Position numbers and translations under genes: made by a program
Notes under the pieces: model-generated
Database searches by the model: none
Told to the model about the DNA's origin: nothing
Seen by the model: the letters and a program-made list of their open reading frames with translations, nothing else
DNA from: Streptomyces lienomycini
GTDB taxonomy: Bacteria; Actinomycetota; Actinomycetes; Streptomycetales; Streptomycetaceae
Direction of reading: 5' to 3'
Length of the DNA stretch: 64,000 bases
Assembly (NCBI RefSeq): GCF_027947595.1
Contig: NZ_CP116257.1
Coordinates: 6,880,001-6,944,000, forward strand
In this document: in pieces, positions 44,162 through 54,122 of the stretch
Position numbering within the stretch: the first letter of the stretch is position 1
Layout: each line of letters opens with the position of its first letter

Positions 44162-44932
44162 TCAAGCAGCGGACCCCGGAAGGCCTTGTTCTGAGGCGAG
44201 CGTCCGCATGCGGGCGGCCACATCCTGTGGGCCGAGTGCCGCCACGGCCGACAGCGCAGTGAGTCTTCGGCCGGAAGACCAGATGTTGGTCGTCGGCGGC
44301 TGGAACGGCATGACTGCTATGCCCCTGGCAGCGAATGGGGCCGGATCGAGGTAGGTCATCCCGCCGGTCCCGCAAGCGTACGCGCGGGCGCCGGTCACGA
44401 CGCAGAGGTCGGCGAGCCGCTGAGAGCGTCCCGGCCGAGAGGGCAGATCGCTGCTGAGCAGGACTTGGCCCTGCCAGCCGAGCAGGTCCAGCAGTAGGCG
44501 GGGGGAAGCTGCGGCGACGGCGGCGGTCCTGCCGGTGACGAAGGCCTCCAGCACCTTGTCCAGCACCTTGGCGAGAGTCGGCCAGTGCGGGCTGGCTCCG
44601 TAGTGCTGCCGCAGTGTCCCCATGGTCTTGCGGCGGGCCCGGTCGGGATCGACGATCAACGCGTCCCGGATGAGAGTCGGCCTGCCCTGGGGAAGACGGG
44701 TGGGGACGGTGAGCCACTGCCGACGGCCCGGTGCGTCGAGGACGCCGAGGCGTGCTCGGTGCTGGTAGTCGCGGCGGGCGAACTGCACGTCGTCCAGGAC
44801 GATCCAGTAGTCCGCCGCGAACAGCTTGGCCAGTGTGGCCAGTCTCGGGAACAGGTTGGGCTGGTGAATCGCGCACAGCCCGCCCGGTTCCGGCAGGTCA
44901 GGAAGCGATGAGGCGGCTGGTGAAGCCGTCAC
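44162..44932 (-). CDS. WbqC-family protein
   Basis: This protein of about 256 residues has the WbqC-like opening CAIHQPNLFPRLATLAKLFAADYWIVLDDVQFARRDYQHRARL and the later TYLDPAPFAARGIAVMPFQ. The family is tied to polysaccharide or sugar-modification loci, but the reaction is unproven. GTG 44932 overlaps the 3' end of the YdcF gene by 35 bp and is taken as start; ATG 45028 is a longer alternative. It is the last of three genes (XRE, YdcF, WbqC) on the complement. Confidence 0.8.
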   Translation of the reverse strand: MTASPAASSLPDLPEPGGLCAIHQPNLFPRLATLAKLFAADYWIVLDDVQFARRDYQHRARLGVLDAPGRRQWLTVPTRLPQGRPTLIRDALIVDPDRARRKTMGTLRQHYGASPHWPTLAKVLDKVLEAFVTGRTAAVAAASPRLLLDLLGWQGQVLLSSDLPSRPGRSQRLADLCVVTGARAYACGTGGMTYLDPAPFAARGIAVMPFQPPTTNIWSSGRRLTALSAVAALGPQDVAARMRTLASEQGLPGSAA

Positions 44933-45566
44933 GGATGAGAGATTCGTACGCTCCACGCACGTCCTCCGGGACTTCCTGCTCGATGGCGAATCCGAGCTTC
45001 GGATACTCAACGACGCGCTGGAGGTCACCGACGAGCATGTCCAGGACGAGCTTCACGTCGCCGATGGACTTGACGTAGTCGTCGAACTCCAGCGGCTCCG
45101 ACGCGCAAAGGGTCTCGACGTCGGGCCACAGCTTGCGAGCGGTCGCGAACGACCTCCGCTCCATGTAGGGCTTGGAGACCAGCATCACCGTGGTCGGGGT
45201 GATGCCGGCGGCGGAGATGACCTCGCGGGAGAGGGCGATGTTCTGCCCCGTGTTGCCGGCGTTCGGTTCGAGCAGGATCGCCTCCGCAGGAACGCCGAGG
45301 TCGATGGCGTGCTCGCGGAAGTGGATGGCCTCACCGCGCGGGAAGACCTTGGCAGTGGTGGGACTGTTGCCGCCGGTGAAGACCAGGGTCGGAAACAGCC
45401 CGGTGCGGTACAGCTCGGCGGCGTGGGTGGCAACGCCCAGGTCATGGCTCCCCAGCCCGATCGCCACGTCGACGGGACGCGGCTCATGGTGCATCTGGTG
45501 GTAGTCCCAGATGAGCGCGGCCCGTTGCCACTGGTTCTCGGTAATGGCCTGCTGGCTGTCGCTCAC
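44898..45566 (-). CDS. YdcF-family (DUF218) protein
   Basis: This 222-residue DUF218 protein has a Rossmann-like fold: VDVAIGLGSHDLGVATHAAELY, LVFTGGNSPTTA and LEPNAGNTGQNIALSREVI. Relatives include ElyC and SanA envelope proteins, but this one has no membrane anchor and looks cytosolic. The partner genes suggest a nucleotide- or sugar-linked role. It starts at GTG 45566, 13 bp after the XRE gene. Confidence 0.85.
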   Translation of the reverse strand: MSDSQQAITENQWQRAALIWDYHQMHHEPRPVDVAIGLGSHDLGVATHAAELYRTGLFPTLVFTGGNSPTTAKVFPRGEAIHFREHAIDLGVPAEAILLEPNAGNTGQNIALSREVISAAGITPTTVMLVSKPYMERRSFATARKLWPDVETLCASEPLEFDDYVKSIGDVKLVLDMLVGDLQRVVEYPKLGFAIEQEVPEDVRGAYESLIRDGFTSRLIAS

Positions 45567-45579
45567 GCGTACTCCCTGA

Positions 45580-46680
45580 TCACCGTCGCCCGGGGCCAGT
45601 CGGCCCCTCGTTCATGGCCTTGATCCCCTCGATACTGCGCAGTTGATGCACAAGCCCGTACTGCGCGGCTGCGCGGGCAGCCTGGTCGAGGACCTGGAGC
45701 CCATCATCCTGCGTCGCTGCGTCGGAGAGCAGGATGTGGCCATGCGCGGTGTCCAGCCGTACGCGTTGCATCGGCGAGTCGGTGGCCCCGCTGCTGCGGG
45801 CGATGCCGATGAAGTGCAGGGCTTGGTCGAGGTCGCCGACGCCACGGCGGGCGAGGGCGAGTTTCTGGTGAGCCACCGACCAGTCGTCGGGTTCGGTGAG
45901 TTCCTCGAAGTCGCGGGTCGCGGCCTGCATCACCCGGGTCGCATAGTCGTGTCGACCGTTCTTGCTCAGCGCCGTGCCCACCCACAGGCGTGCCCTGGCG
46001 CGGTCGCGGTGAGACAGACGGTCGTCAACGGCGAGGCTTTCGTATTGGCGCGCGGCGGTCTCCACGTTGCCGGACATTTCCGTGACCACCGCGAGGGAGA
46101 GGTCGAGCTGGGCGACACGACGCGGGATGTCGAGTTGGGTGAAGACCGCGCGAGCACCTGTGTAGGAGTGCTGGGCGGAAAGCGGGCCGAGAACGGAGCC
46201 TTGATCGCGTTTGAGGTCACCGAGCAGTGCCGTCGAGCGGGCAAACAGATACAGCCCCTTCTCGTCCAGCCCATGGGCGTCGAACCGCGCCAACCAGCGG
46301 CTGAGCAGGCTGTCGGCAAAGGTGAAGTTCTGACGGGAGAGAGCGACCACGACACGGTCCAGGTCGTCGGCCCACGATTCGTACTCCCAGGCTCGGGGGC
46401 CGATGGCAGTGACGCGCCGTCCGGCACCTTGCATGCTGCTGGCCATCTCGGACAGGAGCGTCTCGAAGCGCAGGTGGGCAGGGGCGTTCGCGCGTCCGAG
46501 GGCGGTGTCGAGGATGGCCTGGGTGTCGGGTCTGGGCTCAGTGTCGGCGCGCTTGCTCTCCCACTTCGAGACCGTCGCGACGGCCACGCCGAGGTGCTCG
46601 GCGAAGGCCCGCACACTCAGACGCAGGGCGAGACGCAGAGCTCTGGCCTCCAGGCCGGTCCACTGGTGCACAGTAGCCAC
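45580..46680 (-). CDS. XRE-family regulator with TPR-like sensor domain
   Basis: The protein has 366 residues. The N-terminal helix-turn-helix reads ALRLALRLSVRAFAEHLGVAVATVSKWESKRADTEPRPDTQAILDTAL. The remaining 270 residues form helical TPR-like repeats (for example AVVTEMSGNVETAARQYESLA), as in quorum-type or ligand-responsive regulators. It probably controls the adjacent operons in both directions. It starts at GTG 46680. Confidence 0.88.
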   Translation of the reverse strand: MATVHQWTGLEARALRLALRLSVRAFAEHLGVAVATVSKWESKRADTEPRPDTQAILDTALGRANAPAHLRFETLLSEMASSMQGAGRRVTAIGPRAWEYESWADDLDRVVVALSRQNFTFADSLLSRWLARFDAHGLDEKGLYLFARSTALLGDLKRDQGSVLGPLSAQHSYTGARAVFTQLDIPRRVAQLDLSLAVVTEMSGNVETAARQYESLAVDDRLSHRDRARARLWVGTALSKNGRHDYATRVMQAATRDFEELTEPDDWSVAHQKLALARRGVGDLDQALHFIGIARSSGATDSPMQRVRLDTAHGHILLSDAATQDDGLQVLDQAARAAAQYGLVHQLRSIEGIKAMNEGPTGPGRR

Positions 46681-46683
46681 GCC

Positions 46684-46788
46684 TCACTCCCTTCCACCGT
46701 CATCGAAGCAGATGCGGGGGAGCGGCGGCACGGAAGCAGGACGGAAGTAGAACAGCGGGTGATTGGCCCGGAGGTCGGCGACCTCCAT
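46684..46788 (-). CDS. possible small protein upstream of the XRE gene
   Basis: A 34-codon frame (MEVADLRANHPLFYFRPASV continuing to CFDDGGRE) ends 4 bp before the XRE start, with GGAAGGGAG near its end serving the XRE gene. A GTG at 46803 would add five residues. Composition is not obviously an overprinted shadow, but there is no strong ribosome-binding site. It may be a leader peptide or may not be coding at all. Confidence 0.3.
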   Translation of the reverse strand: MEVADLRANHPLFYFRPASVPPLPRICFDDGGRE

Positions 46789-46833
46789 GCTCAGGATCGT
46801 CACCACGTGTCGGCACTTTGGACGGTCTCCCGC

Positions 46834-47262
46834 ATGGAACCTCTCACAGAAAATCGCCTGATCGGCGGACCAGTCGTCTACGGCTTCCTGCGGCTGGTGC
46901 ACGTCTCCGAAGCCCGCAGGGAGGCACTGGTCGCCTCGCTGGCCGAGTACTCCCGCAGCCACGAGCTGACATTGTCCGGCATCTTCACCGAACACACGGC
47001 CGGCGTCGGCTCCGGCTCGGCCGCCTTCACCGGCCTGCTGGACGTGTTGGCCCTGCCGGACGTCTACGGCGTGCTCGCCCCGGCCGCGTCGCACCTGGGC
47101 CCAAGGGCGATAGCCGCAGAACGAGGCCGACAAATCGAGGCCGTCGGCTCCCGGCTGCTTCTGGTCCGCCGGTCTCGCCACACATGCCCGGCGGCCACTT
47201 CCACCACGGCGGCCCATTGCCACAGCCCGGAAGCCACCTGCCTCCTGCAGAGCGAGTCATGA
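46834..47262 (+). CDS. small resolvase-like protein lacking the catalytic motif
   Basis: This 142-residue protein has a pattern recalling the serine-recombinase N-terminal fold: VVYGFLRLVHVSEARREALVASL, LTLSGIFTEHTAG, then AAFTGLLDVLALPDVYGVLAP and a late IEAVGSRLLLVR. The catalytic Y-x-R-x-S start is not conserved (YGFLRLVHVSE), and no DNA-binding domain follows. A binding or regulatory role is inferred. It is the first of four plus-strand genes, with ATGA coupling toward the next. Confidence 0.65.
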   Translation: MEPLTENRLIGGPVVYGFLRLVHVSEARREALVASLAEYSRSHELTLSGIFTEHTAGVGSGSAAFTGLLDVLALPDVYGVLAPAASHLGPRAIAAERGRQIEAVGSRLLLVRRSRHTCPAATSTTAAHCHSPEATCLLQSES

Positions 47263-47270
47263 GGACAGCA

Positions 47271-47657
47271 ATGATCGAAACAGTGCAGCGCTTCTTCGAG
47301 TCCCGCCCCGAATCCGTGGGGCAGGCGAGGGAATTCGTCTCCATGGTCCTGACCGGATGGGGCTGTACGGAACGGACGGACGACATCCGCCTCTGCCTCT
47401 CCGAGCTCGCCACGAACGCACTGGTCCACGGCACTGTCGCCGACCACGGGTTCCTGGTCCGTCTCAACGCCGAGGACGGTGTCGTACGCCTGGAGGTACA
47501 CGACAGCCGCCGCCAGCGACCCGAGCCCCGTCAGACCGTCGACACCGACCTGTCGGGACGCGGTCTGGTCCTGGTGGCCGCCCTCGCCGATGGCTGGGGT
47601 GTTCAGGACCGCGCACCGCTCGGAAAGATCGTTTGGTCCTGCTTCAAGGGTGCATGA
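47271..47657 (+). CDS. HATPase anti-sigma-factor-like ATP-binding protein
   Basis: This 128-residue protein is an RsbW/SpoIIAB-like GHKL kinase fold. The N-box LSELATNALVHGTV and the G-box TDLSGRGLVLVAALADGWGV are present. Such stand-alone domains are abundant in Streptomyces and often act as anti-sigma factors. ATG 47271 has GAGGA six bases upstream; ATG 47259, which overlaps the previous stop as ATGA, is the alternative. Confidence 0.85.
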   Translation: MIETVQRFFESRPESVGQAREFVSMVLTGWGCTERTDDIRLCLSELATNALVHGTVADHGFLVRLNAEDGVVRLEVHDSRRQRPEPRQTVDTDLSGRGLVLVAALADGWGVQDRAPLGKIVWSCFKGA

Positions 47658-47778
47658 CGTACGACCGCGCACCACAAGCGGGGTCGATCAGCTGATGTTC
47701 GGCCGACTTACCCGCACTCTCTGACACACCTGGGACTTCCCATAGGGACTCGGTCATACGGACGAGAGGAAAACTGCC

Positions 47779-48900
47779 GTGGAAACCTTCGAACGCGCCA
47801 GGCTGGACGCCTATTTCTCCCGCATCGCCGTCCATTTCGCCCCCGACGAGCAGAGCTCGTCGTTCCTGATCACCCATCTCCTCGCCGAACGTCCTGCGTT
47901 TGTCCGCGCCGTTGCCGCGATGACTCGTCTCGTGGCGGTGCTGCCCAAGCCGAAGTCTGTCCATCCGGCTGCCCAACGCGAGACCGAGCGGACCGTCGTC
48001 GTCGATGCCCTGACCCGCGAACTGTTCACCACTCCGGACACCACGCTGGACTACTTCGAATCCCGGGCCGCCGGGGAACCCATCTCCCTCCTCGACGTCG
48101 GCGGCTACTTCGCCCCCACGTTGACCGAGATCCACAGCCGCTTCACGGGCCGCCTGCTCGGTGTCGTCGAGGACACCGAGAACGGCCACCGCCGCTACGA
48201 AACTCTCGACAAACTGCCTTGCCCTGTCGTCTCAGTGGCCCGTTCCCCGCTCAAGGACCCCGAGGACTACCTCGTCGGCCAGTCCGTCGTGTTCTCCACC
48301 GAGGCCGTCATGCGCGGCCGTGGCGACATCCTCCACGGCCGCCCCGCCCTCGTGATCGGCTTCGGCAAGCTCGGGTCCTCCATTGCCCGGCTCCTGCACG
48401 CCAAGGGCGTCCAGGTCACCGTCTTCGACATCGACCCTGTACGCCGCACCCAGGCCCTGTCCCAGGGATTCACCGTCGCCCGTGCGCGCGAGACCGCGCT
48501 GACCGGCGCCGGCCTGGTGCTCTGCGCCACCGGCGCGGTCTCCCTGCGCGGCGAGGACTTCTCCCATCTGCGCAACGGTGCCTACGTCGCCACCGTCACC
48601 TCCAGCGAGGACGAACTCGACCTCGCCGGCCTGCCGGACGTCTACACCCGCACGGTCGTCGGCGACCACGTCACCCGCTATCAGACCACCGGCCACTACT
48701 TCTATCTGGCGAACGGTGGCAATGCCGTCAACTTCATCCACGGCGCGAGCGTTGGGCCGTTCATCTTCCTGATCCAGGCAGAGATCCTCGCCGCGATCAG
48801 GATGCTCACCCGCGGAGACCTCTCCCCCGGCATGCACGAGGTCCCCGCACCTGACCGCGAGGCCATCGCGGCGACCTGGCTCTCCTACTTCAACAGGTGA
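47779..48900 (+). CDS. SAH-hydrolase-like NAD-binding protein
   Basis: The protein has 373 residues. The centre holds a Rossmann NAD-binding domain, LHGRPALVIGFGKLGSSIARLLHAKGVQVTVFDIDPVRR, like that of adenosylhomocysteinase. TVTSSEDELDLAGLP and GGNAVNFIHG follow, also SAHH-like. The N-terminal substrate domain is shortened and diverged, so SAH hydrolysis is doubtful; a related nucleoside or oxidoreductase chemistry is inferred. GTG 47779 is followed by NUDIX coupling at its stop. Confidence 0.8.
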   Translation: METFERARLDAYFSRIAVHFAPDEQSSSFLITHLLAERPAFVRAVAAMTRLVAVLPKPKSVHPAAQRETERTVVVDALTRELFTTPDTTLDYFESRAAGEPISLLDVGGYFAPTLTEIHSRFTGRLLGVVEDTENGHRRYETLDKLPCPVVSVARSPLKDPEDYLVGQSVVFSTEAVMRGRGDILHGRPALVIGFGKLGSSIARLLHAKGVQVTVFDIDPVRRTQALSQGFTVARARETALTGAGLVLCATGAVSLRGEDFSHLRNGAYVATVTSSEDELDLAGLPDVYTRTVVGDHVTRYQTTGHYFYLANGGNAVNFIHGASVGPFIFLIQAEILAAIRMLTRGDLSPGMHEVPAPDREAIAATWLSYFNR

Positions 48901-49448
48901 TCACCGTGCCCATCCCGGCCGACCACATCCGCACCACCATCACTGCCTACCTCGCCCAGCACCCCGAGGACGAACATGAGGTTGCCGTCGTCCGGGAGCT
49001 CCTTGACGCGGGCGGCGACCTCACCAGCCGCAAGTTTCTGCCGGGACACGTCACCGCGGGCGCGATCCTCGTCAGCCACGACGGCCGTGTCCTCCACATC
49101 CTTCACAACGCCACCGGCAAGTGGCTGCTTCCCGGTGGCCACATCGAGCCCAGCGACGACACCCTCTTGCAAGCTGCCAGTCGTGAACTTGCCGAGGAGA
49201 CCGGCATCTCGCCCCACGTCGTCACCCCGCACAGCGAAACCGCTCTACACGTGGACGTCCACCTTATCGACGCCAACCCGGCAAAGGACGAGCCTGCCCA
49301 TCGGCACTTCGACTTCCGCTTCCTCTTCCGCACCACCGCCGACATCGGCCAGCTGCAAACTGAAGAGGTCACCGACGCTGCGTGGCGAACGGTGGAAGGC
49401 TTCACCAACGAAGAGCTGAAGCGACGGGTCGTTCAAGCGCTTCTCTGA
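48897..49448 (+). CDS. NUDIX hydrolase
   Basis: The protein has 183 residues. The Nudix box reads GGHIEPSDDTLLQAASRELAEETGI (about 79-103) in two parts: GGHIEPSDD and REXXEETG-type RELAEETG. The usual glutamate of G-x5-E is an aspartate, while the metal-binding REXXEE core is intact. A nucleoside-diphosphate substrate is expected. GTG 48897 overlaps the upstream stop (GTGA). It is the last gene before the tRNA-Cys. Confidence 0.88.
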   Translation: MITVPIPADHIRTTITAYLAQHPEDEHEVAVVRELLDAGGDLTSRKFLPGHVTAGAILVSHDGRVLHILHNATGKWLLPGGHIEPSDDTLLQAASRELAEETGISPHVVTPHSETALHVDVHLIDANPAKDEPAHRHFDFRFLFRTTADIGQLQTEEVTDAAWRTVEGFTNEELKRRVVQALL

Positions 49449-49672
49449 CCAGCGCGTGGCCGGTGATTCCCGGCACACGGCCAGAGTGCCACCGGGACAG
49501 AGGCTCTTCCGGAATCTGTTGCGTAGGCAGTACGGGGCCGGTACTTGGATCGTATAACCGTCCCTCGCGCGCCCGTTAATGAACGGTGTATGGCAGTCGT
49601 GTTGCGGCCTCCCTCAAATCCTTGAGCACCTCCCCGCCCCGCCCTATCGTCGAGTCACCGAGTCACAGACCC

Positions 49673-49744
49673 GGCCGTGTGCCCGAGTGGTTGAGGGGCT
49701 CGCCTGCAAAGCGAGTTACGCGGGTTCGAATCCCGCCACGGCCT
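49673..49744 (+). tRNA. tRNA-Cys(GCA)
   Basis: The acceptor GGCCGTG/CACGGCC, the anticodon arm CTCGC-CTGCAAA-GCGAG with anticodon GCA, the T-arm GCGGG-TTCGAAT-CCCGC and the discriminator U all fit tRNA-Cys. CCA is not encoded. Its 3' part is duplicated, decayed, at 53286-53316, which marks the gene as an integration target. Confidence 0.97.
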
Positions 49745-49767
49745 CTACCCCGTGATCAGGGGCACAC

Positions 49768-49802
49768 GGAAGGGCGGCACACCGGCGAGGTGCGGCCCTT
49801 CC
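49768..49802 (+). terminator. terminator-like hairpin after tRNA-Cys
   Basis: GGAAGGGC pairs with GCCCTTCC, with an inner GCAC/GTGC stem, 24 bp after the tRNA. A CGGCTCTTCG run follows. Confidence 0.55.
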
Positions 49803-50141
49803 GGCTCTTCGTCCCAGTTCCGGGTTGCTGGTCCTTCCAGCCGTGTGCATTCGGCTCCTTGACCGGGCCCGCGTCCAGCTGGGCACATTGCTGCTCACTC
49901 AGCCTCGGCAGCGGCGCCGCTCAGGCACTACCCGCACAATGGCGATGTCAGCGGCCGGACCGCCGACATCGCCGCACAGGACGACGAGCCACTTCTGCAC
50001 CATGTCTGTCTGGATCGGCGCGGCCGAGCACCGAGTCGACAAGCGCTCTGATGACCAGGCGAACGCCCGGCCCACAGGCCAAGCCGGAGTCCACCACCAC
50101 GAGGCGGGACGGCCAGCGGGGCGCAGCACTGTCCCCGTTCG
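49803..50141. other. non-coding stretch at the start of the tRNA-Cys island
   Basis: About 340 bp hold no convincing gene. Short complement frames at 49899-50129 (QKWLVVLCGDVGGPAADIAI) and 49948-50259 (RLVVVDSGLACGPGVRLVI) look like pieces of decayed coding sequence in two phases. I cannot assign either to a family. An integrase remnant would be expected here but is not recognised. Confidence 0.35.
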
Positions 50142-52001
50142 TCAGTCTGTGTCGCCCTTGGGCTTTGGCCATGCCTCTAGGGCGATACGGGCAAGCCACA
50201 AGGTGCGCAGCTGAATCCGATCCTCGTCCCAGCACTCGGCCCAACGCTCGTTGCTCCACTTGTCCCGAAGCTCCTCCGGCGCGGAGAGCACTGACGAGGT
50301 CGTCAACCGCAAAAGGCTGTGCGTGCCGAGACTCCCCTTCTTATGGAGCCATTCGCGGTTGCTCAACGCAGGGTTGAGCTTCGCAGTGGTGAGCGTGAGG
50401 TTGCCGAGCTGGTGGACCGCCTCATGTCGCTTCTTCAAGCTCTCCTCGCCATCACCGTCGTTCAGCGGCCAGTGTGTTTCCCATTTCTGTGGCAGAACAT
50501 GCTCAATGTTCAGCCGAGCGTCCGCACTTGACAGTGCCGGCGCATGCTCGGTCTTCGGGGTCCGCAGGTGATTCTCCAGTCCGACCAGCAGGGCCTTCAG
50601 CCGGGCACGGTAGGATCGACGGTAGAGATCGGTCGAGATCAGGGCGTCCAGGAACGTCAGATCGTCAGGCCACAACCGGGCCTCGGCTGTCTGATTCCAC
50701 AGGCTGCGCACGACGGCGTGACCTGCCCGAGTGGGATCGCTCTGCTGAACATCGGCAAGTACCTGGACGAAGAGTCGGTTGTAGTCCTTCGTCGTCATCA
50801 GGCACACGGCGCGCCGCATGAGAAATGAGTCGATGGCGCGGGCCGCGATGGCTCGCTGGTCGTTCGGTACGTCGTCTGTCGCGTGCAGGTAAAGCAGCAC
50901 TGGCCAAGGCGTCGTCGTCATGGTCTGCATGCGGTCGAGCAAGCGACCGGTGGGATCGGTCAGCGGCAACCTTCGCACTCGCTGATGCGTCTCGGCGTAA
51001 TGCCTGATGTCCCGAATCACATCCGATGCCTGCCTGGCACTCTTCGGTAGCCATTCTTTGAAGTCGGCAAACAGGTGCTCCACCAAGACGTCTTGATGCT
51101 TTTGAACAGTCAGCCAATAAGCCAGGAGCAAATCGATCAGAGCGCGTCTGATGCGTCCGGTGGTGACCTGACCACGCCAGGGTTCGGCATCCAGAGGCAG
51201 CCAGGCGTTCATCAACAGCTCTTCGGAGTGCTGGTGCTCCCCCTGCGACTCGACGGTCTGGAAAAGGAGGTTCTTGACGAGGTCCGCGGCGTCAAGGCGC
51301 ACTCCCCGGTGGTTCAATGCCTCGAAGATCACCTGCGGGTCGTCACCCGCGTCCAGGACGATCTCGACAAGTTGCATGCGCTCTTGAAGCGTGTAGAACA
51401 GGTCGTCGAGCCGCTGGGCTGGGTTGGCCACGGCCTTGGCCCAGTCGCCGATCTCCTGCTCGAACCACACGCGGGCACGGACCAGCCGGTGGTCGGGGGC
51501 GGGCGCCGTATCGTCGTCGTCGGTCCCGCGTACGGCCCAGAGGAATGCCGCACGGTCCTGAGGGAGCGGCCAGACCTTGTAGCGGTCGTCCGGGAACGCC
51601 TCGTGAACCGTCTCCGCCCGGTTCTCCAGCAGACTCGTGAAACGCCCGACGACGCTGTCAGCGGCCATGTCGTGGGCGACGGCCCGGGCCGCCGCGAAGA
51701 GGATCTGCAGCGTGGTCATACGCTGCTGGCCGTCGATGATGTGAGAGGAACTGAGGCGCCGGGGCGGCCGGTACCGCTCCTGTACGACCACGGCTCCCAG
51801 GAAGTAGGTGCGCGGCTTCGACCCCATACCACTCTGGTTCTCTGTCTCCGCCTCCACTTCCTCCGCCGCCGTCCGGACGTCCATCCACAAGGGTTCCCAG
51901 TTGTCCTTCTCGTCCCATACATAGGGCCTCTGGAAGATCGGGATCACGCTCTGGTGGTCGTTCGCGAAGACCTTCCCCAGCTTGACGTCGCCGGCCTGCA
52001 T
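50142..52001 (-). CDS. DUF262/DUF1524 (GmrSD-like) nuclease
   Basis: The protein has 619 residues. The N-terminal DUF262 domain has IPIFQRPYVWDEKDNWEPLW (20-39) and the nucleotide-binding DGQQRMTTL (90-98). A long helical middle leads to a DUF1524 HNH-type nuclease near the C-terminus (NIEHVLPQKW, then QLGNLTLTTAKLNPALSN). This is the single-chain form of GmrSD, a restriction family directed at modified phage DNA. ATG 52001 follows GGAGGGG. It is divergent from the Mrr-like gene across 181 bp, forming a probable defence pair. Confidence 0.9.
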   Translation of the reverse strand: MQAGDVKLGKVFANDHQSVIPIFQRPYVWDEKDNWEPLWMDVRTAAEEVEAETENQSGMGSKPRTYFLGAVVVQERYRPPRRLSSSHIIDGQQRMTTLQILFAAARAVAHDMAADSVVGRFTSLLENRAETVHEAFPDDRYKVWPLPQDRAAFLWAVRGTDDDDTAPAPDHRLVRARVWFEQEIGDWAKAVANPAQRLDDLFYTLQERMQLVEIVLDAGDDPQVIFEALNHRGVRLDAADLVKNLLFQTVESQGEHQHSEELLMNAWLPLDAEPWRGQVTTGRIRRALIDLLLAYWLTVQKHQDVLVEHLFADFKEWLPKSARQASDVIRDIRHYAETHQRVRRLPLTDPTGRLLDRMQTMTTTPWPVLLYLHATDDVPNDQRAIAARAIDSFLMRRAVCLMTTKDYNRLFVQVLADVQQSDPTRAGHAVVRSLWNQTAEARLWPDDLTFLDALISTDLYRRSYRARLKALLVGLENHLRTPKTEHAPALSSADARLNIEHVLPQKWETHWPLNDGDGEESLKKRHEAVHQLGNLTLTTAKLNPALSNREWLHKKGSLGTHSLLRLTTSSVLSAPEELRDKWSNERWAECWDEDRIQLRTLWLARIALEAWPKPKGDTD

Positions 52002-52182
52002 CGCCCCTCCGGTCCCCCAGCACCTGCATGGTCATCGCAGCGTAACGGCGCGTCGCCAGATCTGATCGTCCTTCCACTAATCTTCGCTCTCAACGTCGAT
52101 TGAGCTGACGGCTCTTGGACCTAGCATCATCAGCGGTCCACCCTGGCGTCCGTCAGGAGAGAGCGAAGGAGGATCGGCACTC

Positions 52183-53172
52183 ATGTGGTTCGGAGACCCT
52201 GGGCACGTCAGCGATGTCACGATCCGGGGCGCCGCTGAGAAGGCACTTGCGGGTATGCCCGGCAGCGTGCGCGCCGCATGGACGGCAGCGTTGGAGGAGG
52301 CACGCAAGGACATCCTTGGCAGCGGCACGGTGCTGGAGTCGAAGCAGTACACAGGCACCTACGACCACCGGTACGACTCCTGGCACATGCCCGTCGAACT
52401 GGGCATCGGCATCGACGCCGTGGACGACGGCAACGCCACCGTGCGGCTCGTTCAGCACCGTGCCGGGGAATTCGACACCATCAGCCAGATCGTGTCGTAC
52501 GTCAACGGCAGACGGCTGTTCCACAAGGTGACGGTGGGCGAGATTTTGCCTGCAGGGTCCCGGAACAACTACAGCCCGGAGGACTACACAGTCCAACTCC
52601 GCGAGGCAGATGACGCCTACCGCACTCTCCGGGCTGCCTTCGCAACTCCCGACAGCCGTACAGAGCGCTACCAGTATCTTCTCCAACTGACCACGTTCCT
52701 GAAGGAACAGGCGCGTGCCCTGGAGACGACCGCGCCCACCCCAACTGAGCCCCGCGCGGTATCCGACTGGTTCGCCTTGTCCCCGACCGAGTTCGAGTAC
52801 GCCGTCGCCGAGTTGTGCCGCAAGGACGGCTGCACCCGAGTGCAGGCGATCGGTGGGGCCGGAGACCTTGGGGCGGATGTCGTCGCCTACACCCCTGACG
52901 GGTGCAAGGTGGTGATCCAGTGCAAGCAGTACCGGGGTAAGGTCGCCAGCCCCGATCTGCAGAGGTTTGCCGGAACCGTTTTCAACGTCCACCGCGCCGA
53001 CGTCGCGGTGCTGGTAACGACCGGAACCGTCACCACCCCCGCGGCGCGGCTCGCCAAGGCTACGGGCATCGAAATCGTGCACGCCGAGCGGCTCGACCGA
53101 TGGGCCGACGGGAGAGACCGGCCGCCCTGGTATCACCACCACACCTTGTTGCCGCCCGAAAGCGGCCTTTGA
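52183..53172 (+). CDS. Mrr-like restriction endonuclease
   Basis: The protein has 329 residues. Residues 1-190 are a novel-looking N-terminal region (MWFGDPGHVSDVTIRGAAEK, later YNSPEDYT-like segments) that I cannot name. Residues 200-310 are an Mrr_cat fold: GGAGDLGADVV carries the catalytic aspartate and VVIQCKQY the Q-x-K, followed by the helix SPDLQRFAGTVFNVHRADVAVLVTTG. Mrr proteins cut methylated DNA. ATG 52183 has AAGGAGG. It lies against the att-like tRNA remnant. Confidence 0.88.
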   Translation: MWFGDPGHVSDVTIRGAAEKALAGMPGSVRAAWTAALEEARKDILGSGTVLESKQYTGTYDHRYDSWHMPVELGIGIDAVDDGNATVRLVQHRAGEFDTISQIVSYVNGRRLFHKVTVGEILPAGSRNNYSPEDYTVQLREADDAYRTLRAAFATPDSRTERYQYLLQLTTFLKEQARALETTAPTPTEPRAVSDWFALSPTEFEYAVAELCRKDGCTRVQAIGGAGDLGADVVAYTPDGCKVVIQCKQYRGKVASPDLQRFAGTVFNVHRADVAVLVTTGTVTTPAARLAKATGIEIVHAERLDRWADGRDRPPWYHHHTLLPPESGL

Positions 53173-53251
53173 CCGGACCGCACATCCTGGTCGGAGCCCT
53201 GTGGGCTCCAACAACGGCGTGCCGTCCCGTTACGGGGCATGCCTGGCCTGA

Positions 53252-53316
53252 GCCGTGTGACGGGCCGGATGGGCCCGCAAAGCCTGTTACGTGGGTTCGA
53301 ATCCCACCACGGTCTC
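53252..53316 (+). pseudogene. decayed tRNA-Cys copy, putative att site
   Basis: GCCGTGTG at 53252, GCAAAG at 53277 and GTTACG at 53286 match the tRNA-Cys in order. The 31-nt tail 53286-53316 matches tRNA-Cys 49715-49745 with three substitutions. Two of them turn a C-G pair of the T-stem into T-A, so the stem is kept. The 5' acceptor and D-arm are degraded. It is read as the far attachment scar of an element inserted in tRNA-Cys. Confidence 0.7.
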
Positions 53317-53961
53317 CAGCAGCGTCGTGCGGCGCAGCGCCCACAGGGTGAGGGCGAGGGCGGAGACGTCCGACATCAGGGGGTGGAGGGTGCCGTCGGG
53401 TGTCCGCCAGGTCAGGACGGTGCCTGTCGTGCCGTCGACGGCGACGTGGGCGCCGTCCGCGAGGCGTCCCAGGCGGACCAGGTGCTCTGCGTCCGCCGGG
53501 ACCGGGTGTTCGGGGTGGTCCTCGCCGTACTCCGCCAGGGTCGGGAGCGGCAGGTCGTCCGTGTCGAGGCGGAAGGGGCGGGCGTCCTCGGGCAGGCCCG
53601 TCTCGCGCAGGAAGCGGCGGGTGGGCTCGTGGGTGAGGGTCCTCGGGAAGTCGATGTCCTCGAAGCGCGTCACCCGGTGACGGCCGAACTCCCGGTCCAG
53701 GAAGCGGGGCGGCAGGTCCCGGGAGGTCCCCGGCTCCGCGCGGTGGCTCACCGCCAGGAGCAGGCAGCTCATCAGGGTGGACGTGTTCCACAGCGACGGC
53801 CGCTCGCCGCTCCCCTGGGGCCGCCGGGACGCGCCGCGCGTCCACGACGGGTCCTCCACCGTCGTGGCGAGGCGGACCCGGGTCAGCAGCGAGGGAGCCT
53901 CCGTCCGGACGGCCGCCGCCGCGCCCCGCGTGATCGTCGTACCGCCGGTGACCGCGTGCAT
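53287..53961 (-). CDS. SUKH-4-family immunity-like protein
   Basis: The protein has 224 residues. The SUKH-4-like region includes RVTRFEDIDFPRTLTHEPTRRFLRETGLP, then FRLDTDDLP, LVRLGRLADGAHVAVDGTTGTVLTW and LMSDVSALALTLWALRR. SUKH proteins neutralise polymorphic or contact-dependent toxins, but no toxin gene is adjacent. The final residues ETVVGFEPT are encoded by the antisense of the decayed tRNA copy, so the natural C-terminus was probably replaced by the integration. ATG 53961 follows GGGGAGA. Confidence 0.75.
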   Translation of the reverse strand: MHAVTGGTTITRGAAAAVRTEAPSLLTRVRLATTVEDPSWTRGASRRPQGSGERPSLWNTSTLMSCLLLAVSHRAEPGTSRDLPPRFLDREFGRHRVTRFEDIDFPRTLTHEPTRRFLRETGLPEDARPFRLDTDDLPLPTLAEYGEDHPEHPVPADAEHLVRLGRLADGAHVAVDGTTGTVLTWRTPDGTLHPLMSDVSALALTLWALRRTTLLETVVGFEPT

Positions 53962-54122
53962 CGTCTCCCCCGAGAAAGTATGGCCCTCCGCGTGCCGGCG
54001 GCTGCCGTTCGCGCTCCTTCGGAGACTACGCGCCACCACTGACAACGCGCCTGCGCACGGACCCCGTTCACCTCGTAGGACGCGCCGGAACACGCACCCG
54101 TTGCCTCACGCGCGCGAGCGGC

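Follow-up and report, generated by a model that had tools for sequence, protein, structure and literature searches.

How do two nuclease genes come to stand between an intact tRNA-Cys gene and a decayed copy of that gene? The question is posed by a locus of Streptomyces lienomycini, whose genome is a single contig of 7.86 Mb (NZ_CP116257.1). The stretch analysed, called the window here, comprises the 64,000 nucleotides (nt) at positions 6880001–6944000, and coordinates below are counted from its first letter. Along the window the order is tRNA-Cys, a gene for a GmrSD-type nuclease, a divergent gene for a protein in which a predicted RelE/ParE-type fold precedes an Mrr nuclease domain (the ‘fusion’), the decayed tRNA-Cys copy and a SUKH-4 gene. 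There is good support for the island as a tRNA-associated remnant of an ordinary kind. We hold it reasonably probable that it is what remains of an integrative element in the 3′ end of a second tRNA-Cys gene, with the GmrSD-type and RelE-fold/Mrr nucleases as its cargo.

A repeat of the tRNA 3′ end bounds the nuclease genes

The intact tRNA-Cys(GCA) gene (49673..49745, plus strand) forms the proximal end of the island and is recognised by both ARAGORN and Rfam (66.1 bits). It is the second tRNA-Cys of the genome; the other is part of a Gly-Cys-Val cluster at about 5.378 Mb. Its 3′ end recurs beyond the nuclease genes as a 31-bp imperfect repeat (49715–49745 and 53286–53316) with three substitutions, two of which compensate each other in the T stem, turning a C-G pair into T-A. 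The intact tRNA and this imperfect repeat had been noticed in a preliminary description of the locus, made from the letters of the DNA, and are as claimed there. The repeat grows without gaps to 44 nt at 86% identity, joining 49702..49745 (plus strand, tRNA nt 30–73), the proximal copy of an attachment (att)-like repeat, to 53273–53316. A repeat of the tRNA 3′ end is thus present at both ends, as in tRNA-site elements. When the tRNA was used as query against the whole genome, the decayed copy was the only second place found at E≤1e-3 (E 4.2e-8).

The preliminary description also set the repeat within a longer degraded tRNA copy. This attR-like scar occupies 53251..53316 on the plus strand. The 3′ 44 nt of this copy are secure and its 5′ half is doubtful: Rfam reads 53251–53315 as a whole tRNA at 31.3 bits, barely above the cut-off of 29, and 1206 of 5000 shuffles match tRNA nt 1–29 as well as the 5′ half does, or better. 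The reading as a whole-tRNA relic, weakly supported by Rfam and unsupported by the shuffles, was not adopted. Two of the eight distal copies found in relatives (see below) were also tested for a whole tRNA, and gave no tRNA match.

The relic's 3′ 35 nt could be compared with 39 of 40 tRNA-Cys loci from other Streptomyces. They differ at three positions from the tRNAs of loci L046 and L038 and at six from the window's own tRNA; being closer to the former, the right part of the relic resembles an original host 3′ end, as an attR should. Relatives such as L046 have the first of the two compensatory changes alone, as a G-U pair, in an intact tRNA; the paired changes therefore require no special explanation.

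The tRNA-Cys site is an insertion hotspot

A tRNA search over 100 genomes, that of the window included, gave a match in 81 at E≤1e-3, weaker matches being counted, and 40 other Streptomyces tRNA-Cys loci were compared with the window. At least one of the right-hand neighbours (SUKH-4, a gene of 773–788 aa, a [2Fe-2S] gene and others) recurs in 34 of the 40. The SUKH-4 gene itself (53287..54093, minus strand, in the window) is present in 12; its 3′ end overlaps the tRNA scar in the window and the tRNA itself in L046. The block behind SUKH-4 starts anywhere from 0.36 to 14.7 kb after the tRNA in the 34 loci where this distance was measurable; of the remaining loci, four lack the right block within the stretch examined and two are on short contigs. 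On the left, the start of an MFS gene lies no more than about 0.6 kb from the tRNA in 29 of the 40. This one-sided variability, with a variable right side and a close left side, is the pattern left by insertion at a tRNA 3′ end, and the tRNA-Cys site is an insertion hotspot. Empty sites, which the preliminary description proposed to look for, were sought across these loci: two (L046 and L070) are near-empty, and the interval differs among the loci where it was measurable, as the relatives of a tRNA-site element should show. The window's inserted cargo, about 3.5 kb without trace of an integrase (49746..53272), is delimited on the basis of this variable interval between tRNA and downstream block.

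The cargo of the hotspot was scanned in 94 of the 206 open reading frames called in the variable intervals. PADLOC matched 35 families, and the 25 listed are dominated by PD-T4-6, which we take to be a kinase; Pfam found seven protein kinases among the same 94 frames. A general defence hotspot at tRNA-Cys was dropped, because the PADLOC matches listed are mostly PD-T4-6. Judged from these frames, the hotspot in general does not resemble a defence island, the name given to the locus in the preliminary description. The island in the window carries two likely DNA-cutting enzymes.

Distal copies and integrases in relatives

A second piece of the tRNA, running from nt 31 to the 3′ end (43 nt), stands 0.8–14.6 kb downstream in eight of the 40 loci. 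The left flank of all eight ends in ACAAA, as expected of attP sites from one element family. Five of these eight loci hold a tyrosine integrase of one family: the lengths are 423 aa (L067), 420 aa (L047), 343 aa (L045) and 253 aa (L049), and L063 has a fragment of 131 aa. Compared pairwise, the four longest are 83–87% alike. In the other three, an integrase of that family was not found at E≤1e-10. Integrase loss is thus seen in stages among relatives, from apparently complete through shortened to none.

On the model of an integrative remnant, an element would have inserted into the 3′ end of the second tRNA-Cys gene by means of a tyrosine integrase, which may have belonged to the family that persists at this tRNA elsewhere in Streptomyces. 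The tRNA 3′ end carried by the element would have been joined to the host tRNA, and the host's original 3′ end displaced to the SUKH-4 side, where it would survive as the decayed copy; the integrase would have been lost afterwards. The cargo left behind would be a GmrSD-type nuclease in one chain and, transcribed divergently from it, a protein that unites a RelE/ParE fold with an Mrr domain of the PD-QxK type. Both may cut incoming DNA and may act against phages. Of the earlier proposal of a 3.5-kb cargo left after loss of the integrase, insertion at the tRNA 3′ end with a distal scar is supported by the hotspot, the near-empty sites, the distal copies and the integrase family, whilst the loss in the window copy is an extension from these relatives.

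Various further tRNA fragments occur around the same site. In L069, two complete tRNA-Cys genes enclose 2.6 kb, and the distal one is diverged. Short tandem pieces of the tRNA 3′ part lie just downstream of tRNA-Cys in L058 and L043, and split copies lie just upstream of it in L037, L044 and L045. The arms of these five are tRNA-Cys-like, but the anticodon/variable region is longer by some 30 nt; the pieces in L043 and L058 comprise mainly the 3′ part. The upstream copy of L045 scores 41.2 bits in Rfam; ARAGORN calls it, unlike the other four, tRNA-Gly(ccc).

The GmrSD-type nuclease

The GmrSD type IV nucleases, whose DUF262 motif is DGQQR, cleave modified DNA and are stimulated by NTPs. The first cargo gene (50142..52001, minus strand) encodes a protein of 619 aa with DUF262 at residues 9–247 (GmrSD_N, PF03235, 106 bits), in which DGQQR lies at residue 90, and a DUF1524 HNH domain at residues 444–605 (GmrSD_C, PF07510, 78.6 bits), with EHVLP at residue 500. 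EHxxP is given in the relevant passages of PMC12707154 as the DUF1524 motif of GmrSD-type nucleases. With both domains and both motifs in one chain, the protein belongs to the GmrSD type and resembles GmrSD, BrxU and SspE. Its sequence is far from those of the solved members met in a PDB sequence search, where the matches include SspE and the best E is 5.8e-9. The same passages describe DUF262/DUF1524 enzymes such as GmrSD and BrxU as cutting DNA with modified cytosine (PMC12707154), and by analogy the window protein is predicted to cut incoming DNA.

The probable RelE-fold/Mrr fusion

The fusion gene (52183..53172, plus strand, 329 aa) is separated from the GmrSD-type gene by 181 bp (52002..52182). 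Its C-terminal part is an Mrr catalytic domain of the PD-QxK type (residues 199–307; 52777..53103, plus strand), with GAD at residues 230–232 and QCK at 246–248, matched by Mrr_cat (PF04471) at 87 bits for a cut-off of 21; this places the protein in the Mrr family. A DUF262/DUF1524 nuclease followed by a divergent Mrr-like nuclease had been given in the preliminary description, and the Pfam matches to GmrSD_N, GmrSD_C and Mrr_cat, together with the orientation, bear this out. A winged helix of the EcoKMrr type was not found at the N-terminus, where Pfam gave no Mrr_N match up to E 10.

Residues 1–190 had been left unrecognised in the preliminary description. Profile comparison and structure prediction now suggest that they probably contain a RelE/ParE-type fold (residues 1–124; 52183..52554, plus strand), connected to the Mrr domain by a helical linker. 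RelE/ParE-type toxins make up the first 42 of the 50 structure matches listed for the fold predicted by AF2, and the ribosome-bound Cami1 is among its fold matches. A sequence relationship is indicated by profile–profile comparison with 12 RelE-like proteins, which scored 31.3 against 19.1 for the best of 200 shuffles, despite the absent Pfam match. The 12 proteins (seven from the same genus, five from the same order) were chosen by eye from 19 frames, which favours a cleaner profile. The seven frames dropped were six without a RelE pattern and L154, a near-copy of L149. Nine more members of a first profile were also left out, eight as antisense-like and one (L133) that may be a true ParE; L148 and L156 were left out uninspected. 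That first profile consisted of 14 matches to PF05016, many of them frames resembling antisense false matches. As judged by eye, several Streptomyces matches to PF05016 do not look like toxins but like frames antisense to a conserved gene family, and PF05016 searches in high-GC genomes need checking.

The arginine of the usual RelE motif, YR(I/V)xY, has no evident conserved counterpart in the alignment of the fusion family, in which D43, Y60, W67, H114 and E120 vary little or not at all; these other polar residues could serve as catalytic residues. An adjacent antitoxin gene was not found, the flanking spaces being 181 and 78 bp and the next genes GmrSD and SUKH-4. The RelE-fold domain may replace the winged helix of classical Mrr as a recognition or gating part. 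Such a role is favoured over that of an RNase, given a domain that is conserved although it seems to have lost the usual active-site arginine of RelE.

Distribution of the two nucleases

A search with residues 1–195 of the fusion against 5.8 billion proteins found 14, one of them 99% identical to the window's; 12 carry an Mrr domain, and the named holders, S. zhihengii, NPDC020747 and S. cyaneofuscatus among them, are Streptomyces. A profile search for short relatives found six, two already counted, which resemble frameshifted or cut copies. The Mrr domain is common, being present in 282 of 392 genomes at E≤1e-20. The N-terminal domain is present in four of 362 genomes from an overlapping draw: that of the window, G174, G195 (a frame without Mrr) and G186 (a fragment). 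The fusion is thus probably an Mrr-type nuclease with an unusual and rare front end. A frame with the RelE-fold domain and no Mrr (L127:9767–10189) has 140 aa from the ATG of the domain or 216 aa from the first start codon, and follows genes that by eye resemble a Tn554-type transposon.

The closest relative of the locus is in Streptomyces sp. NRRL B-1140 (L105), where tRNA-Cys, GmrSD (94% protein identity) and fusion (87%) have the same order and orientation and 3.07 kb can be aligned at 90% DNA identity; the shared tRNA and gene pair confirm the location and the pair. Comparison with L105 gave ratios of non-synonymous to synonymous substitution (dN/dS) of 0.10 for GmrSD and, within the fusion, 0.31 for the RelE-fold part, 0.33 for the linker and 0.12 for the nuclease. 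The fusion is under purifying selection, and the window genes are open and look maintained.

In S. microflavus (L106) the fusion and a GmrSD relative of 36% identity lie within 2 kb, accompanied by an OGG-like gene. This gene (L106:11513–12526, minus strand), for an 8-oxoguanine glycosylase (PF21790), adjoins the GmrSD relative. In G174 a RelE-like gene of 83 aa (RelE profile P 1e-6; L104:9505–9756, minus strand) lies at a distance of about 350 bp from the fusion; it has no Pfam match and a possible antitoxin frame upstream.

Weighing the explanations

Several results weigh against the account of an integrative remnant whose cargo includes a RelE-type fold. The island has no integrase (best match of the relatives' integrases, E 0.18), and the left side of its relic is unlike the left flank of the eight distal copies. 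In L105 another 5.3 kb of genes precede SUKH-4 and a distal tRNA copy was not detected, which weakens the view of a repeat that bounds the cargo as one unit; the finding of the same genes without a flanking repeat, named beforehand as damaging to the proposal, was thus made in part. No fusion relatives were found in viral contigs or phage records, and of 35 plasmid records that match the fusion none does so over more than 80% of the protein, the best ten covering the Mrr part only. As to the fold, the input alignments for AF2 were shallow (14–15 sequences), Foldseek alone gave no match for the N-terminal domain at E≤0.001, Pfam and PDB sequence profile searches of the N-terminus gave no RelE match, and the first, contaminated RelE profile scored 15.4 against 14.3 for the best of 60 shuffles. 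Nor do the two genes keep constant company. GmrSD occurs in G030 (88%, with one internal stop), G153 (79%) and G242 (70%) without a fusion relative in the surrounding DNA examined, and the G174 fusion has no GmrSD relative in the surrounding 16 kb. The single restriction pair of the preliminary description goes beyond these results, and GmrSD and the fusion are regarded as two systems able to travel together, each of which may, by analogy, practise modification-dependent restriction.

The tRNA copy and the genes might be unrelated: ordinary recombination at a hotspot would have gathered the genes, and the copy would be a scar left by another, earlier element or by tandem duplication of the tRNA. 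This seems to us somewhat unlikely. A locus with two full tRNA-Cys genes 2.6 kb apart (L069), the presence of both nuclease genes without a distal copy in L105 and the Rfam reading of the scar as a whole tRNA (31.3 bits), which would be unlike a simple attR, speak for it; the scar nonetheless lies at the SUKH-4 boundary, as an attR predicts, its 5′ half does not beat shuffles, and the 77 bp before it match the tRNA promoter region no better than E 0.18. It is quite improbable that the intact tRNA-Cys arrived together with the DNA from about 44.2 to 53.25 kb, the relic being the original host tRNA. The DNA from MFS to SUKH-4 does have a lower GC content than the right flank, and none of it was seen next to the tRNA in the other 40 loci except as a HATPase match of 32% in L040; the relic's 3′ end, too, is nearest to the tRNAs of L046 and L038. 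However, a host-like 3′ end of the relic is equally predicted by ordinary integration, and the promoter stretch of the intact tRNA is common to L105 whilst the relic shows none.

The other alternatives concern the fusion. Its RelE-fold domain could still be an active ribosome-dependent RNase or gyrase poison, making the protein a two-headed abortive-infection effector that cuts RNA and DNA. The match to ribosome-bound Cami1 and the nearby RelE-like gene in G174 fit such a toxin, but the missing counterpart of the YR(I/V)xY arginine, flanking spaces that leave little room for an antitoxin gene and the lack of any ParE_toxin (PF05016) match in the window genome do not, and we think it unlikely. 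A repurposed RelE domain that acts as a trigger, docking on ribosomes, RNA or a phage product instead of reading DNA marks, is likewise doubtful; if it were so, an attack on translation or a foreign transcript would release the Mrr-type DNase, with GmrSD as partner.

A separate insertion upstream

The window holds a second insertion, absent from the preliminary description. About 5.4 kb of DNA (44224..49571, boundaries approximate) with DUF218, HTH, HATPase, SAHH-like and NUDIX genes separates the native MFS gene from the tRNA-Cys promoter. The SAHH-like protein was found in six of 61 genomes searched, the window genome included.

Relation to known systems

SRA is among the readers of modification-dependent nucleases. 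Winged-helix and other readers of Mrr-type and other modification-dependent nucleases are described in passages of PMC12707154 and PMC11037411; in the former, Mrr acts on methylated DNA and EcoKMrr has a winged helix ahead of its catalytic domain. The window fusion shares with the Mrr family (PF04471) a C-terminal PD-QxK domain behind an N-terminal domain, but has a predicted RelE/ParE-fold domain and a helical linker where EcoKMrr, as described there, has the winged helix. In the passages of PMC11980606 on ptuXYZ, a DUF262 protein is likewise encoded in one locus with a protein of the RelE (BECR) fold. The window pair differs from that account in having DUF1524 and in having the RelE fold joined to a DNase-type and not a PIN-like domain; a gene for the PtuY ATPase was not found between the window genes, which are 181 bp apart. 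A RelE/colicin-D-type fold built into a type IV restriction protein is also described for the RTL domain of CoCoNuT CnuH (PMC11090510). There it is part of a helicase, in an McrBC-type system for which RNA is the predicted target; helicase and McrBC parts were not found in the window island. CnuH and ptuXYZ are thus published precedents for RelE folds in systems resembling type IV restriction. The accretion of actinomycete integrative elements (AICE/ICE) at Streptomyces tRNA genes is similar to the present case in its successive elements or remnants at one tRNA with flanking direct repeats, but the sites named in the passages concerned are tRNA-Arg, tRNA-Thr and tRNA-Val (PMC9513070), in contrast to the second tRNA-Cys of the window. 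Neither a RelE–Mrr fusion nor a Streptomyces tRNA-Cys hotspot was met in the literature searched, supplements not being covered.

If the assignment of the N-terminus is right, nucleases of this kind would gain a new reader or trigger in the RelE/ParE fold, and a single chain would combine a toxin fold with DNA restriction. The tRNA-Cys series, with its full, shortened and missing integrases, gives a concrete view of how the cargo of an element becomes resident.

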